Of a stretch of 64,000 bases of DNA, positions 7,843-26,840 are shown one piece after another. The translations under genes and the position numbers were made by a program. Under the pieces are notes generated by a model that saw only the letters and a program-made list of their open reading frames with translations, did no database searches and had not been told where the DNA came from. Numbering within the stretch: position 1 is the first letter of the stretch; each line of letters starts with the position of its first letter. Location of the stretch: NCBI RefSeq assembly GCF_019021925.1, contig NZ_CP058990.1:3064001-3128000 (forward strand), given 5' to 3'. The DNA is from Cellulophaga sp. HaHaR_3_176. GTDB lineage: Bacteria > Bacteroidota > Bacteroidia > Flavobacteriales > Flavobacteriaceae.

Positions 7843-9741
7843 ATGAGTGACGCCATTAAGCACGAATGCGGAATATCTTTAATACGTTTATTAAAACCGT
7901 TAGAGTATTACGAAAAAAAATACGGTACAGCATTTTACGGAGTAAATAAAATGTATCTAATGATGGAAAAACAGCATAACCGCGGACAAGATGGTGCTGG
8001 GTTTGCAAGTATCAAATTAGATATGGATGCTGGTGAAAGGTATATGAGCAGAGTTCGATCTATAGCTCAACAACCTATACAAGATATTTTTGCCCAAATT
8101 AATGATCGTATAAGTACATCGCTTAAAGAAAACCCTGAATACGAGAACAATGTTGCGTTACAGAAAAAACATATTCCATATATAGGTGAACTTTTATTAG
8201 GACATGTTCGTTATGGTACTTTTGGAAAAAATAGCATTGAAAGTGTTCATCCTTTTTTAAGACAAAATAATTGGATGCACCGTAACCTTATTGTTGCTGG
8301 TAACTTCAACATGACAAATGTTGATGAGTTATTTGATAATTTAATACAAATTGGACAGCATCCTAAAGAGATGGCGGATACTGTTACCGTTATGGAAAAA
8401 ATAGGGCATTTTTTAGATGATGCTGTTTCTAAATTATATAAGCAAATAAAGAAAGAAGGTTTCAACAAACAAGAGGCTTCTCCATTAATTGCAGAAAGAT
8501 TAAATGTTGCTAAAATTTTAAGAAGAGCTGCAAAAAACTGGGATGGTGGTTATGCTATGGCTGGCTTACTAGGCCATGGTGATGCATTTGTGTTACGTGA
8601 CCCAGCAGGCATTAGACCAACTTATTATTATCAAGATGATGAAATTGTAGCCATTGCTTCTGAAAGGCCCGCAATACAAACTGTTTTTAATGTAAAATTT
8701 GATGAAGTTAAAGAACTAGACCCTGGTCATGCTATTTTAATTAAAAAAGATGGAACAACTTCTATAAAACAAATATTAGAACCAACTGTACGTAAGGCTT
8801 GTTCTTTTGAACGCATCTACTTTTCAAGAGGTAGTGATAAAGAAATATACCAAGAGCGTAAAGAATTAGGAAGACTTATTTTTCCGAAAATTCTAAAATC
8901 AATTGATGAAGATATAAAAAACACTGTTTTCTCTTATATACCAAACACTGCTGAAACTTCGTTTTTTGGCATGGTTAAAGAGGCTCAGAACTATATGAAT
9001 AAAAAGAAAGAAGAGCAAATTCTTTCTATAGGTTCAAAAATTACAAAAGAAGAACTTCACGAAATTTTAGATGTTAGACCTAGAATAGAAAAAGTTGCAA
9101 TTAAAGATGCTAAGCTTAGAACATTTATCACTCAAGATAGCGGTAGAGACGATTTAGTAGCTCATGTTTACGACATATCTTACGGATCAGTTAAACCAGG
9201 AGATAACTTAGTTATTATAGATGATAGTATTGTAAGAGGTACTACGCTTAAAAAGAGTATCCTTAAGATATTAGATCGATTATCACCTAAAAAGATTGTC
9301 GTTGTATCTTCTGCACCACAAATTCGATATCCAGATTGTTATGGTATTGATATGGCTAAATTAGAAGACTTTATTGCTTTTAAAGCAGCTTTAGACCTTC
9401 ATAAAGACAAAAACACAATGCATCTTGTTGATGATATTTACAAAAAGTGTTTATCACAAGTAGATTCACATGACAAAGATGTTATAAATTATGTAAAAGA
9501 TTTTTACACACCTTTTAGCGCTGACGAAATTTCTGACAAAATTGGAGAGCTATTAAGCTCTTCTGAAATTAATGCTGAAGTTCAAATTATTTATCAAACA
9601 ATTTCTAATCTTCACATTGCATGTCCTAAAAACCTTGGTGACTGGTACTTTACAGGAGATTATCCAACACCAGGAGGTAATAGAGTTGTGAATAGAGCAT
9701 TTATAAATTTCTATGAAGGTAAAAACGAAAGAGCTTACTAA
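7843..9741 (+). CDS. Amidophosphoribosyltransferase, long form
   Basis: PurF-type enzyme that makes phosphoribosylamine from PRPP and glutamine. The glutaminase nucleophile is expected to be Cys9 (HECGISLIRLL), exposed by removal of an eight-residue propeptide. Other Ntn-domain landmarks are QHNRGQDGAGFAS, GHVRYGTFG and RDPAGIRPTYY. The phosphoribosyltransferase loop is VIIDDSIVRGTT near residue 460. At 632 residues it is more than 100 longer than a standard PurF of about 500. The extra length lies around residues 60-110 and 170-215 and in the C-terminal part. I leave the symbol blank because a canonical purF may exist elsewhere in the genome. Confidence 0.92.
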   Translation: MSDAIKHECGISLIRLLKPLEYYEKKYGTAFYGVNKMYLMMEKQHNRGQDGAGFASIKLDMDAGERYMSRVRSIAQQPIQDIFAQINDRISTSLKENPEYENNVALQKKHIPYIGELLLGHVRYGTFGKNSIESVHPFLRQNNWMHRNLIVAGNFNMTNVDELFDNLIQIGQHPKEMADTVTVMEKIGHFLDDAVSKLYKQIKKEGFNKQEASPLIAERLNVAKILRRAAKNWDGGYAMAGLLGHGDAFVLRDPAGIRPTYYYQDDEIVAIASERPAIQTVFNVKFDEVKELDPGHAILIKKDGTTSIKQILEPTVRKACSFERIYFSRGSDKEIYQERKELGRLIFPKILKSIDEDIKNTVFSYIPNTAETSFFGMVKEAQNYMNKKKEEQILSIGSKITKEELHEILDVRPRIEKVAIKDAKLRTFITQDSGRDDLVAHVYDISYGSVKPGDNLVIIDDSIVRGTTLKKSILKILDRLSPKKIVVVSSAPQIRYPDCYGIDMAKLEDFIAFKAALDLHKDKNTMHLVDDIYKKCLSQVDSHDKDVINYVKDFYTPFSADEISDKIGELLSSSEINAEVQIIYQTISNLHIACPKNLGDWYFTGDYPTPGGNRVVNRAFINFYEGKNERAY

Positions 9742-9843
9742 TTTGTAGCGAAAAAAGACTGAATAAGTGTATTTTGTCGATTATTCTTACATTTTATCGG
9801 GTATTTAGTCATTTCAACTAAAGCAAGAGTAGATTTAGGCTTG

Positions 9844-9912
9844 CCATAGCATAAGTAGGTTAAGTTCATGGTAAGATTTGGGGAAAAAGGTGGAGTTTTA
9901 CTCCGCCTTTTT
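9844..9912 (+). ncRNA. Small RNA gene, tandem copy 1 of 3
   Basis: The unit opens with a short hairpin, CCAT...ATGG, enclosing the conserved string GCATAAGTAGGTTAAGTT. It continues with TAAGATTTGGGG and ends in the terminator stem GGTGGAG/CTCCGCC plus five T. A -7-like box TAGATTTA (9830-9837) lies seven bases before the first C, at nearly the same distance as the boxes of copies 2 and 3. There is no open frame. The conserved core, individual terminators and the same placement in three copies support a transcribed RNA. I cannot assign it to a named family. Confidence 0.75.
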
Positions 9913-10147
9913 ATTTATATAATATTTTTCTTACAAAATATCCTAATCCTTTTTTAGTATTCAAATTCAACAACAAGTTTTTAACTTTCGTTCTGAAAAA
10001 TAGTTTTACATTTTAAAATTGTTGATCTACAGCAATAAACATTTCAATTATTTAAACCATAATTAAGTCTAGAAAAAGAGAAAAGAGTATTTCAACTTAT
10101 TAACTCGGTTTTGGTCTAAAAAATATACCAATATCTATCTTAAGTAT

Positions 10148-10155
10148 TACTTTTG
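10148..10155 (+). promoter_or_regulatory. -7 box of small RNA copy 2
   Basis: TACTTTTG is an exact TAnnTTTG match, six bases before the conserved CCATAG start of the RNA unit. The equivalent boxes of copies 1 and 3 are TAGATTTA and TAACTTAG, each one mismatch from consensus. No -33 TTG at standard spacing is seen. Confidence 0.55.
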
Positions 10156-10160
10156 GATGA

Positions 10161-10230
10161 CCATAGCATAAGTAGGTTAAGTTCATGGTAAGATTTGGGG
10201 GAAAAAGGCGGAGTTGTACTCCGCCTTTTT
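10161..10230 (+). ncRNA. Small RNA gene, tandem copy 2 of 3
   Basis: Identical to copy 1 across the whole core from CCATAG through GGTAAGATTTGGGG. The terminator stem is the perfectly paired GGCGGAG/CTCCGCC with a five-base loop and a T-run. It has the best -7 box of the three (TACTTTTG at 10148-10155). The spacers on both sides are not conserved with those of copy 1, so the RNA unit itself is under constraint. Confidence 0.77.
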
Positions 10231-10364
10231 CATTTCTGATAATCAATATGTTAACACTAAAAAAAAGTGTTTCTTACACAAGCCTATTAATAAATAATGC
10301 ATTTTGTCGATAAAAAGTGTAACTTTCTTTTGATATTTCTCACAATACCAGTAACTTAGCAGAG

Positions 10365-10436
10365 CCATAGCATAAGTAGGTTAAGTTTATGGTAAGATTT
10401 GGGATGAAAAGGATGGAGACTTCTCCATCCTTTTCT
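10365..10436 (+). ncRNA. Small RNA gene, tandem copy 3 of 3
   Basis: The most diverged copy. The core changes at one base (C to T after TTAAGTT), which turns the opening stem from CCAT/ATGG into the longer CCATA/TATGG. The terminator stem becomes GGATGGAG/CTCCATCC, again perfectly paired, so its bases changed on both arms compared with copy 2. These paired changes are what a functional RNA structure predicts. A -7-like box TAACTTAG lies at 10352-10359. Confidence 0.77.
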
Positions 10437-10448
10437 ATTTTATAGAAA

Positions 10449-10488
10449 CAAAAAGCCCGTTAGAAGTAATCTTCTAACGGGCTTTTTT
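10449..10488. terminator. Bidirectional terminator at the end of the superoxide dismutase gene
   Basis: A 14-pair perfect stem (AAGCCCGTTAGAAG with CTTCTAACGGGCTT) around TAAT, with an A-run on one side and T-run on the other. It ends the leftward sod transcript and would also stop any read-through from the small RNA array. Confidence 0.93.
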
Positions 10489-10518
10489 ATTGAAAAGAAT
10501 GTAACGTAATATTACCTC

Positions 10519-11127
10519 TTATTTATTATCAGCATATAATGCAGAAACCTTTTCCCAGTTAATTACATTAAAAAATGCATTAATGTAATCTGGTCTTCTG
10601 TTTTGGTAGTTTAAATAGTAAGCATGTTCCCAAACATCTAAACCTAAAATAGGAAAACCACCACAACCTGTACCAGGCATTAATGGGTTATCTTGGTTTG
10701 GAGTAGAACAAACCTCTACCTTACCACCTTTATGTACACAAAGCCAAGCCCAACCAGAACCAAATCTTGTTCCTGCTGCTTTAGAAAATGCATCTTTAAA
10801 AGCTTCGAAAGATCCGAAAGCTGCATCAATTGCTGAAGCTAACTCACCTGAAGGAGTTCCTCCTCCGTTTGGAGACATTACTTCCCAAAATAATGAGTGA
10901 TTGTAGAAACCACCACCGTTATTTCGAACAGCATTATTACTCATATCTAAATTTTCTAAAATAGCGTCGATAGATTTATTTTCTAAATCTGTACCCGCAA
11001 TAGCATTATTTAAATTTGTTGTATAACCGTTATGGTGTTTTGTATGGTGAATTTCCATAGTGCGAGCATCTACATTAGGTTCTAGTGCATCGTATGCGTA
11101 TGGTAATTTTGGTAATTCAAAGGCCAT
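10519..11127 (-). CDS. sodA: Superoxide dismutase (Mn/Fe family)
   Basis: Converts superoxide to peroxide and oxygen. The 202-residue protein has all four metal ligands: His27 (MEIHHTKHH), His77 ([10 protein letters not shown]), Asp164 and His168 ([12 protein letters not shown]). The glutamine in the TPNQDNPLM segment (about 145) is the position typical of the manganese form, so the gene is called sodA; a cambialistic enzyme is possible. There is no signal peptide, so it is cytosolic. A minus-strand -7 box TAACTTTG lies at 11163-11170. It is divergent from the AddA-like gene. Confidence 0.95.
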
Positions 11128-23564: not shown

Positions 23565-26500
23565 ATGTATTTTAAAAATATTCCTTTTAAATTAAAACCA
23601 ATACTTTTTTTAGTATTAAGTTTATTTTTCATCCAAACAGGATGGTCAAATGACACTTTAAAGAACCAAAACACAATAACAGTTAATTATATAAATGCAG
23701 ATTTAATTACATTATTAAATGAAGTAAGCTCACAATCTTCATACAATTTTAGCTATGGAGAAGACATTATAAAAGATGGTAAAAAGTATACGGTTTCTTA
23801 CCACAATACTTCGTTAGAAAATGCTTTAAAAGATTTAGGAGCTAAGGCCGGTTTCTCTTATCGTATTGCAAATAACGTAGTACTCCTAAAGAAAATAGTT
23901 CCAATAATTAGAAGTGTAGTTTCTCAGCAAACTATATCAGGTGTTATTTTAGACGAGAACAACGCTCCATTACCTGGTGCAAGCGTGCAAGTTAAAGGAA
24001 CTTCTAATGGAGTGGTTACCAACTTTGATGGAGAGTTTCAGATAGAAACTAGTATCGGAAGTATTTTAAAAATTTCATACATCGGGTATAAATCAGAAGA
24101 GGTAACTGTATCTACTACCACTATTAGAGCTCAACTTACCCCAGATGCAGCAGAGCTTAATGAAGTAGTTGTTGTTGGTTATGGTAGCCAAACCAAAGCA
24201 GATGTTACGGGTGCTGTAACTCAATTAAAGGAATCTAGCTTTAGACAAGGTATCAATACTTCTCCTGATGGTTTATTACAAGGTAAAGTAGCCGGAGTAC
24301 GTGTCGTAAATACAAGCGGAGAACCTGGTGCAGGTATAGATGTAAGTATTCGTGGCGTTGGCTCTATCCGTAGTGGTAGTAGTCCGCTGTTTGTTATTGA
24401 TGGTGTACCATTAACTAATGATGATGTGAGTCCTTCTGGTTCTAACGTAGGGTTTGGTTCCTCAAGTGCTAAAAATCCTCTAAACTTTTTAAATACAAGT
24501 GATATAGAGTCTATAAATGTATTGAAAGATGCCTCTGCTGCTGCAATTTATGGTGCAAGAGGATCTAATGGGGTGGTAATTATCACCACAAAGAAAGGAA
24601 AAACAGGAAAAGCCTCTTTGACCTTAGATACTTATTTAGGAATGTCTACAGTAGCTAATAAAATGGATCTTCTAAATGCTAATGAGTATAGAGCTGCCAT
24701 TACAGATGATGCTTTTGACCATGGCGCCTCTACAGATTGGCAAAATGAAATTTATAGAACAGCTATTACGAAAAGTAATGTCTTATCCTACTCCAAAGCA
24801 AATGAGAGTGGAAACTATTATGTTTCCTTAGGGAATATGGATCAAGAAGGTATTGTTAATAACAGCGAGTTCAGCCGAACTTCTGGGAGAATAAATGTTG
24901 CTGAGAGTTTTTTAGACGATAAGCGTTTAAAAATTAAAGTAAACCTTACTGCCAGTGAAACTGTAGATAACGGAGTACCTACTAGTGATGATGGTGGGTC
25001 TAATGGCCAATTAATTATACATACGTTAATGGCAAACCCTACAAGATCTGTATTTGATGAAAATGGAGAGTTTACCAATTTCAATATGAATGCGCATTAC
25101 AACCCAGCATACTTATTAAGCATTTATGAAGACGAAACACGTACATTACGTATTTTAGGAAACATAGAAGCTTCTTTACGCCTTTTTAAAGGTTTAGAAT
25201 ATAAATTGAATTACGGAATAGACCGCTCTATTGCAGAACGTAACACTACTATATACCCTAACCTTACCGATTTGAACCCGTTAGGAATGTATGTTCAAAA
25301 TAATTTAGAATCTAAAAGTACTTTATTAGAGCACTACTTAACCTACAACCTATTAGCAGGAGAAAAGCATAAGTTAGAAGTTTTAGGCGGATTTTCTTAT
25401 CAGAAATTTGAACGTTCAGGAACCAGTTTTAATTTAGATAACATTCCTGAGAAAGACAATGGAGTTAAACCAGTATACAGCCCAACTTCTAATAATTCAC
25501 AAATTAATGTAGATGGTTTTGCACAAGAGAATGAGCTACAGTCATATTTTGGAAGGTTTAATTATTCTTTTGACGGTAAATATTTACTAACTGCTTCTAT
25601 GCGTGCTGATGGTTCTACCCGTTTTGGCGAAAATAGTAAATATGGTTACTTTCCTTCTTTTGCTTTAGGTTGGAATATTTCTGAAGAAAAATTTTTAGCA
25701 GATAGCCCTGTAGAAAGTCTTAAGTTAAGAGCAAGTTGGGGTCAAACAGGAAACCAAGAAGTGCAAAACAAAATAACACAAGCTAGTTATGCTCTCTCTG
25801 GAGCAGATGGGTATTACCTATATGGTAATGATGCCTTAATCAATGGAATATCAGTATTAAGAACGCCTAACCCAGATCTTAAATGGGAAGTTGTTGAACA
25901 GTACAATGTTGGTTTAGATTTTAGTTTATGGAATAGAAAATTATATGGTTCCTTAGATTATTTCCAAAAAACTACTACAGATGCGATATTAAACATCCCT
26001 TCTCAGGTATTAAGTCCAACTGATAATATTTGGGTAAATATAGATGGTGAAATTGTAAATTCTGGTCTGGAATTTATGGTAGGCTCTAACCTTGTTTCTA
26101 ACTCAAATTTTAGTTGGGATGTAGATGTTAACGGCGCAACATTAGCTAATGAAATTAAAAATTTACCCGTATCAGAAATACTATCTGGCTCTATTTCTGG
26201 ACCTGGTCAATCTGGGGTTTTAGCAAATATTTATAAGAGCGGTTATGCTGCTGGCTCTTTTTACTTATTAGAACATGTAGGTTTTGATGAAGACGGGTTT
26301 GATGTATTTAATGACACCAACAATGATGGTAATATTACTGCAGATGATCGTATTATTATAGAAGGTGCTTTACCAAAATTCACTTACGGCTTTAACAGTC
26401 AAATGAAGTATAAGAATTTTGATTTCTCTTTTTCTTTAATAGGTCAAGCAGGAGGATATTTAATTAATAACACTGGCTTAAATGCTTTAAATATTAATAA

Positions 26501-26840
26501 TTTGGCATCTGATAGGAACGTTTCAACTGCCTATTATGAAACTGGTGCAAACCCTGCAAATTCACCTCAACTATCTACCTTCTACTTAGAAAAATCAGAT
26601 TTTATACGCTTAAACACCGCTCGTTTAGGGTATAATTTACAAGTGAATAATGTAAACTGGTTAGAAGGAATCAACTTATATATTACAGGCCAAAATCTCT
26701 TGACTATATCCAATTATTCTGGTTATGACCCACTAATTAATAGTCCAAAATCTAGTGGCGGAAATCAGTCTTTAGGGATTGATTATTCTAGCTACCCAGG
26801 TTCTAGAACATTTATTTTAGGTGCAATTTTTAAATTATAA
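23565..26840 (+). CDS. SusC/RagA-family TonB-dependent transporter with N-terminal STN signalling domain
   Basis: A 1091-residue outer-membrane channel importing large nutrients with TonB energy. In order: a signal peptide (about 1-28) and an STN domain (about 37-110, ITVNYINADLITLLNEVSSQ). A carboxypeptidase-regulatory-like domain follows (about 122-200, ISGVILDENNAPLPGASVQV), then the TonB box/plug start (LNEVVVVGYGSQ). The plug (VLKDASAAAIYGARGSNGVV) and the 22-strand barrel complete it, ending in an aromatic-rich strand. The STN domain links transport to FecR/sigma control. The substrate is not readable from sequence. Confidence 0.96.
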   Translation: MYFKNIPFKLKPILFLVLSLFFIQTGWSNDTLKNQNTITVNYINADLITLLNEVSSQSSYNFSYGEDIIKDGKKYTVSYHNTSLENALKDLGAKAGFSYRIANNVVLLKKIVPIIRSVVSQQTISGVILDENNAPLPGASVQVKGTSNGVVTNFDGEFQIETSIGSILKISYIGYKSEEVTVSTTTIRAQLTPDAAELNEVVVVGYGSQTKADVTGAVTQLKESSFRQGINTSPDGLLQGKVAGVRVVNTSGEPGAGIDVSIRGVGSIRSGSSPLFVIDGVPLTNDDVSPSGSNVGFGSSSAKNPLNFLNTSDIESINVLKDASAAAIYGARGSNGVVIITTKKGKTGKASLTLDTYLGMSTVANKMDLLNANEYRAAITDDAFDHGASTDWQNEIYRTAITKSNVLSYSKANESGNYYVSLGNMDQEGIVNNSEFSRTSGRINVAESFLDDKRLKIKVNLTASETVDNGVPTSDDGGSNGQLIIHTLMANPTRSVFDENGEFTNFNMNAHYNPAYLLSIYEDETRTLRILGNIEASLRLFKGLEYKLNYGIDRSIAERNTTIYPNLTDLNPLGMYVQNNLESKSTLLEHYLTYNLLAGEKHKLEVLGGFSYQKFERSGTSFNLDNIPEKDNGVKPVYSPTSNNSQINVDGFAQENELQSYFGRFNYSFDGKYLLTASMRADGSTRFGENSKYGYFPSFALGWNISEEKFLADSPVESLKLRASWGQTGNQEVQNKITQASYALSGADGYYLYGNDALINGISVLRTPNPDLKWEVVEQYNVGLDFSLWNRKLYGSLDYFQKTTTDAILNIPSQVLSPTDNIWVNIDGEIVNSGLEFMVGSNLVSNSNFSWDVDVNGATLANEIKNLPVSEILSGSISGPGQSGVLANIYKSGYAAGSFYLLEHVGFDEDGFDVFNDTNNDGNITADDRIIIEGALPKFTYGFNSQMKYKNFDFSFSLIGQAGGYLINNTGLNALNINNLASDRNVSTAYYETGANPANSPQLSTFYLEKSDFIRLNTARLGYNLQVNNVNWLEGINLYITGQNLLTISNYSGYDPLINSPKSSGGNQSLGIDYSSYPGSRTFILGAIFKL

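Follow-up and report, generated by a model that had tools for sequence, protein, structure and literature searches.

We identified three rightward units of about 70 nt in a gene-free gap, which extends from a purF-like gene to a superoxide-dismutase-like gene, in the window studied here (the whole 64,000-nucleotide stretch of the Cellulophaga sp. HaHaR_3_176 chromosome that was analysed), and the evidence from their sequences supports the prediction that they constitute a multi-copy, conserved small RNA (sRNA) gene. We propose, with a probability of roughly 0.7, that the units are separate genes, each for a trans-acting, base-pairing sRNA of about 70 nt, which is predicted to repress the translation of surface adhesins and their PorP-like anchors. 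Pairing of the loop and the tail of this RNA with the leader of its target is the part of the proposal that conservation of the predicted sites supports; translational repression, the trigger and any protein partner we infer.

Organization and distribution of the sRNA locus

Each of the units is comprised of a TAnnTTTG-like box, a 39-nt core beginning 5-6 bases further on with CCATAG, and its own intrinsic terminator (Table 1), i.e., the promoter-like box and terminator that would mark an independent unit encoding a trans-acting, base-pairing sRNA. Sequence inspection and genome searches confirm the positions, the near-invariant core and the separate terminators given in the initial annotation of the window, and amend its spacing between box and core, which had been put at 6-7 bases. 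Copies 1 and 2 have the same core over all 39 nt, and that of copy 3 departs from it by one base, a C-to-T change at core position 24. A search of the 3.8-Mb genome allowing up to three mismatches recovered these three copies only, with 0 matches to the reversed pattern. Between copy 3 and the dismutase gene there is also a strong hairpin with flanking A- and T-runs (AAAAAGCCCGTTAGAAG ... CTTCTAACGGGCTTTTTT; 10450-10489), which is probably a two-way terminator.

Table 1. Features of the three sRNA units and of their upstream regions, in window coordinates.
Feature	Positions	Strand	Basis
Copy 1 upstream direct repeat (TTTTGTCGATTA, TTTTATCGGGTA), 20-bp period	9772..9803	+	by eye; layout recurs in 121 copies elsewhere
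Copy 1 -7-like box TAGATTTA	9830..9837	+	sequence, cross-genome promoter comparison
sRNA copy 1 core, 39 nt, 5' hairpin 9844-9871	9844..9882	+	sequence, genome search
Copy 1 loop seed AGTAGGTTAAGT	9854..9865	+	complement ACTTAACCT at target start regions
Copy 1 tail seed GATTTGGGG	9875..9883	+	complement CCCCAAATC upstream in same target leaders
Copy 1 intrinsic terminator	9884..9912	+	sequence, folding, covariation
Copy 2 upstream direct repeat (TTTCAACTTA, TTTGGTCTAAAA)	10090..10121	+	sequence; matrix score 18.8
Copy 2 -7-like box TACTTTTG	10148..10155	+	sequence, cross-genome promoter comparison
sRNA copy 2 core	10161..10199	+	sequence, genome search
Copy 2 loop seed	10171..10182	+	as copy 1 loop seed
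Copy 2 tail seed GATTTGGGG	10192..10200	+	as copy 1 tail seed
Copy 2 intrinsic terminator	10202..10230	+	sequence, folding
Copy 3 promoter, different conserved type (TTTTGATATTTCTCACAATACCAGTAACTTAG)	10328..10359	+	near-identical in 28 copies, 28 other genomes
Copy 3 -7-like box TAACTTAG	10352..10359	+	sequence
sRNA copy 3 core, T at position 24	10365..10403	+	sequence, genome search
Copy 3 loop seed	10375..10386	+	as copy 1 loop seed
Copy 3 tail seed GATTTGGG	10396..10403	+	as copy 1 tail seed
Copy 3 intrinsic terminator	10406..10435	+	sequence, folding

A 30-nt core pattern, searched with up to three mismatches, yielded 75 matches in 19 of 40 genomes, namely in all 18 of the genus (this one included), 1 of 7 from other genera of the family and none of the 15 outside the family but within the order. 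The initial annotation had reasoned that an RNA gene would be refuted by a core decaying like its spacers, and this is not what the comparison returned: 67 of these 75 matches are exact (with 6, 1 and 1 showing one, two and three mismatches, respectively), and the flanks diverge among the copies compared, which were chosen by a regular expression for the core. Knowledge of sRNAs in Flavobacteriaceae is limited, and this one, which is not in Rfam 15, is widespread in the family: a covariance model derived from 51 unique copies of the genus and Zobellia, the family search that had been suggested at the outset, matches 166 of the 199 Flavobacteriaceae genomes drawn, with 1-7 matches in each. Across 296 genomes of the order, everything above 54 bits among the matches listed falls within Flavobacteriaceae, and 8 genomes outside the family have one match each at 29-34 bits. 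A scan of named genomes for the core found at least 118 stretches; among the 80 rows listed, those with a genus or family name are, as we take them to be, Flavobacteriaceae, and the rest are labeled Bacteroidetes, Bacteroidota or Flavobacteriia. The locus is conserved along with the RNA, with purF present in 153 and the dismutase gene in 143 of 171 sRNA loci.

Conserved elements of the RNA

The units fold better than shuffled sequences (z-scores of -2.95, -4.66 and -3.62) because of the terminator; the core alone (38 nt) folds no better than shuffles (z 0.45). The initial annotation had seen paired changes in both stems as the sign of a conserved structure, which is correct for the terminator and overstated for the 5' stem: the change in the 5' hairpin of copy 3 is one-sided, and the 51 unique copies of this genus and Zobellia show covariation in the terminator only, without a two-sided change at any 5' pair. 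In an alignment of 114 copies (100 distinct), which was fitted to the model structure and hence leans toward it, helix 1 of the 5' hairpin shows 96.7% pairing, with two-sided changes at 2 of its 7 pairs; the inner helix 2, which is 3 pairs long, shows 89% pairing and 0 two-sided changes; and 10 of 11 terminator pairs have two-sided changes. The family-wide covariation support for the 5' hairpin is accordingly modest.

The loop and the tail are the best-conserved parts of the RNA. Of 48 distinct core variants, 39 retain the loop sequence AGTAGGTTAAGT and 47 retain ATTTGGG, both counts being biased upward: most of the loci behind these variants were fetched by a pattern containing the loop and the tail, and the free evidence is confined to the extra copies found therein. 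The 5' strand varies among the same variants (CCATAGCATAAG, CCAGAACATAAG, CCATTAGCATAAG, CCATGACATTAG). Some loci have copies with an altered loop or stem beside intact ones (L247:3049-3122, L198:5592-5665, L206:3046-3119, L132:1154-1224), which are perhaps decaying or specialized paralogs.

Two types of promoters

The spacers between the units had been considered unrelated. They are not entirely so: copies 1 and 2 have a direct repeat with a 20-bp period in common upstream, and copy 3 has a different promoter. The repeat layout, as seen in 121 copies from other genomes, has T-rich half-sites at -71 to -59 and -51 to -40 followed by the -7 box, and the period is apparent from a lag-20 identity of 0.435 (next best 0.337). 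The copy 3 promoter, including its spacer CACAATACCAGTAAyTTAG, belongs to a class with 28 further members in 28 other genomes that hardly differ in sequence, and it looks like a special promoter or an operator. The presence of two promoter types suggests two transcriptional inputs, whereby an activator would act on copies 1 and 2 at the 20-bp direct repeat and copy 3 would respond through its own conserved promoter. A LytTR protein as the factor recognizing the repeat is a guess. A pattern search for a wider regulon of the repeat gave 1 site versus 2 in the control, and the sRNA promoters did not stand out from background when 1.26 Mb was scanned with a matrix.

A giant type-B surface protein as the main predicted target

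The loop (AGUAGGUUAAGU) and the tail (GAUUUGGGG) are both complementary to conserved blocks in the leader of a giant SprB-like gene, so that the seeds match conserved sites in an mRNA start region, and they do so in the correct antiparallel order, viz., sRNA tail to the upstream site and sRNA loop to the downstream site. The typical leader has CCCCAAATC, about 13-27 nt, (AC)TTAACCT, and then the AUG at once or a few nt on. This gene came up when 14 genomes were scanned for an ATG preceded by the loop complement: ACTTAACCTATG lies at the start of one gene in at least 9 genomes among the matches listed; upstream of that site is a CCC(C)AA.. element corresponding to the tail complement CCCAAATC or a near variant, which was absent from the scan pattern. 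The predicted target would be a giant SprB-like type-B cargo protein of the type IX secretion system (T9SS), of about 2,800-2,900 aa: open frames of about 2,770-2,930 aa are seen on contigs long enough to contain them, the version in this genome has a C-terminal T9SS type-B sorting domain (TIGR04131, 81 bits), and the match to the SprB repeat is sub-threshold (26.7 bits, cut-off 28).

With the first 231 residues as query, 80 of 149 family genomes showed some match and 21 a match over the whole stretch; the query was chosen for carrying the site, and the 21 genera are related rather than 21 independent events. All 21 of these genomes have the sRNA. In their 21 leaders (16 fetched and 5 taken from matched strings), TTAACCT occurs at or near the start in 20 (G138 being the exception) and CCC(A/G)A(A/G)TC in 19 (the exceptions being G064 and G082), with the A-to-G change keeping a G-U pair in two, this genome (CCCCAAGTC) and G138 (CCCCGAATC). 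Duplexes with the 16 fetched leaders have a mean energy of -30.0 kcal/mol, compared with -18.15 +/- 1.79 when the core is shuffled, and 0/300 shuffled cores were as low; for the seeds taken alone on the same leaders, 0/300 shuffles were as low for the tail and 5/300 for the loop. Among 999 start regions of this genome (998 sampled genes and this one), the giant type-B leader, which had first been identified through other genera, ranks 1 (-34.1). The initial annotation had pointed to the loop (AGTAGGTTAAGTT) and the G-rich TTTGGGG as the contact sites and had proposed predicting targets with them; conserved complements of both within one leader, in 19-20 of 21 orthologs, make these sites a well-supported prediction at the level of sequence. 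Its overall interpretation is partly supported, as regards a conserved sRNA gene and its contact sites; the 5'-stem covariation was overstated, and the analysis lends no support to its suggestion of a protein decoy.

In the mechanism that we propose, a transcript made from its own promoter-like box, with a hairpin at the 5' end, then an unpaired purine tail and finally a terminator, would pair through its loop and tail with the leader, thereby covering the start region and blocking translation, and less surface adhesin and PorP-like anchor would be made. The opposite outcome, in which the same leaders are activated because tail pairing with CCCAAATC opens or stabilizes them and raises translation or mRNA life, we regard as unlikely, though it is the foremost of the alternatives: for many of the 16 leaders, single-sequence folding places CCCAAATC within or close to a hairpin (GAATAT...ATATTC), but RNAalifold returned no consensus structure for the target leaders, and in most of them the downstream site lies directly against the start codon, where pairing usually blocks initiation.

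A decoy role, in which the invariant loop and tail titrate an RNA-binding protein, is less probable still; it would account for a conserved stretch exceeding the needs of pairing and for the several copies per genome, but would leave unexplained that the conserved blocks have complements, rather than copies, in the conserved leaders.

Further predicted targets

The mechanism would extend beyond the giant type-B gene, to PorP/SprF genes among others. Ranks 2-5 of the 999 start regions go to a small, 120-aa lipoprotein (-31.3), a PorP/SprF protein (-28.4), a 1,084-aa type-B adhesin (-28.1) and a 147-aa protein (-27.4), all of them further predicted targets. The adhesin gene (TIGR04131, 55 bits) is directly upstream of the rank-3 PorP/SprF gene. 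The rank-2 and rank-5 genes are orthologs (42% and 67% identity) of genes picked in genome G107 by the loop-before-ATG scan, and scans against NCBIfam and Pfam gave no name to either protein. The PorP/SprF gene and its Zobellia ortholog (78.7% identity) have TTAACCTAC in common just before the start. Of the 30 best-scoring PorP orthologs, 19 have 8-mers of the core complement (shuffled mean 2.0, 0/2000 as high) and 17 have those of the loop alone (18/2000 shuffles as high); most of the distant PorP orthologs (L387-L400) are without the site. Two lipoprotein genes with weakly similar N-termini, L441 (in G136) and L470 (in G107), both have CCCAAATC and ACTTAACCT before the start codon and are possible further targets. 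The type-B and PorP genes as a class (8 of the 998) have lower energies than the rest (Mann-Whitney p 0.0065; 2 in the top 4, 2 in the top 20), an enrichment that is only suggestive, the class having been defined after the top matches were seen and 4 of its 8 members ranking below 200.

An excess of complementary start regions, which would support a trans-acting sRNA without being necessary for one, was not found. Complementarity of the full core to start regions, relative to shuffled cores, showed no excess at p<0.05 in five gene sets (smallest p 0.058), and two sub-segment tests gave 0.018 and 0.047, uncorrected. The duplex-energy tail showed no clear excess (-25.7 versus -24.3 +/- 1.05 for shuffled cores). 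Pattern counts were similarly without excess: 201 matches (sRNA genes included) versus 381 for the reversed control with the loop-before-ATG pattern, summed over 14 genomes; 59 versus 54 for the control with the bipartite pattern in 149 genomes; and, for long antisense sites (AACTTAACCTACTTATG, up to three mismatches), 20 beyond the sRNA genes versus 35 for the reversed control. A first k-mer enrichment disappeared once shuffled cores were used and ATG words excluded. SusC was rejected as a target, with contiguous matches never longer than 8 nt in 16 genes. With few sites and no numerical excess, the case for targeting therefore rests on recurrence at orthologs. In 400 kb sampled from Flavobacterium, the loop and tail are kept and there is no target signal, and the targets there may differ; the target predictions given here pertain to the Cellulophaga/Zobellia side of the family.

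The lack of general complementarity enrichment, together with the conservation of leader blocks other than the two sRNA sites, would also fit elements that are not expressed as free sRNAs and whose matches to leaders conserved for other reasons are incidental. We consider this quite improbable, given the promoter-like box and covarying terminator at each copy, the two separate and correctly ordered matches that 19-20 of the 21 orthologs have, and the 0/300 shuffled cores that did as well on the 16 fetched leaders. One such additional block, TATAAGTTTAAACAATTAC (alignment A3, columns 7-28), lies some 55-75 nt upstream of the giant type-B start and may be a promoter or a 5' end.

The PorP-like protein SprF is reported to be bound to the adhesin SprB (PMC9143113). 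Extending the repression favored above, we tentatively suggest, with the odds somewhat against it, that the two-seed sRNA could act throughout the Flavobacteriaceae as a post-transcriptional brake on T9SS type-B adhesins and PorP/SprF anchors, with tandem genes and two inputs setting the dose, and adhesion and gliding tuned at translation. If true, this would offer a possible route to turn adhesion and gliding up or down fast.

Relationship to known RNA families

Rfam 15 families detected at the gathering score across the window are limited to tRNA, with none at the sRNA units. The Flavo-1 motif of Rfam is, like this sRNA, known from flavobacteria, and had been raised as a possible identity; it gave no match at the gathering score in the window, nor does it figure among the 67 matches that a search of 9740-10520 gave at E values up to 10. 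The sRNA is unnamed in the titles and beginnings of abstracts listed by the literature searches, and a literature search with its letters returned frog, mouse and yeast titles only. The family hence looks new, its kind, the multi-copy regulatory sRNA, being already known. The Qrr sRNAs of Vibrio, for instance, come from several nearly identical genes and share their target mRNAs; the likeness is in the multi-copy layout, the promoters are different from those described here, and no sequence relation is claimed.

Rfp18 of Flavobacterium psychrophilum, as described in PMC9723704, is likewise a conserved flavobacterial sRNA predicted to pair with mRNAs of secreted proteins, one of them an adhesin; it is said to pair via a third stem-loop, whereas the present sRNA has one hairpin and a terminator. 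Some of the RNAs described here may be among the Rfp1-89 transcripts of that organism (PMC9723704).

Parallels are also seen in FopS and GibS of Bacteroides thetaiotaomicron (RF04319 and RF04182), which, according to PMC11697453, are short RNAs that have an intrinsic terminator and a conserved seed at the 5' end, FopS being multi-copy, and act at start regions of genes for cell-surface proteins. That the present sRNA is a flavobacterial member of this group repressing SusC-like transporters is highly improbable: the shared architecture and a weak string (CATAG.AT.AG / AGGTTAA) in common with the published FopS consensus (PMC11697453; with the best of three core variants p is 0.04-0.05 before correction, and with the remaining two 0.10-0.31) are set against covariance scores of 16.5 bits (copy 1; gathering 56) for FopS and 23.3 of 115 bits for GibS, and against a longest contiguous complement of 5-8 nt at the start regions of 16 SusC genes, leaving FopS homology unsupported. 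The window itself has a full-length SusC/RagA-like gene (23928-26828; TIGR04056, 737 bits), where the longest sRNA complement at the start is 6 nt. The two groups thus share a short, multi-copy, seed-plus-terminator architecture, with several paralogs per genome (3 here, 1-7 across the 166 genomes); the present sRNA is distinguished by tandem copies at one conserved locus, by loop-plus-tail seeds, and by predicted targets that are T9SS type-B and PorP-like proteins rather than SusC.
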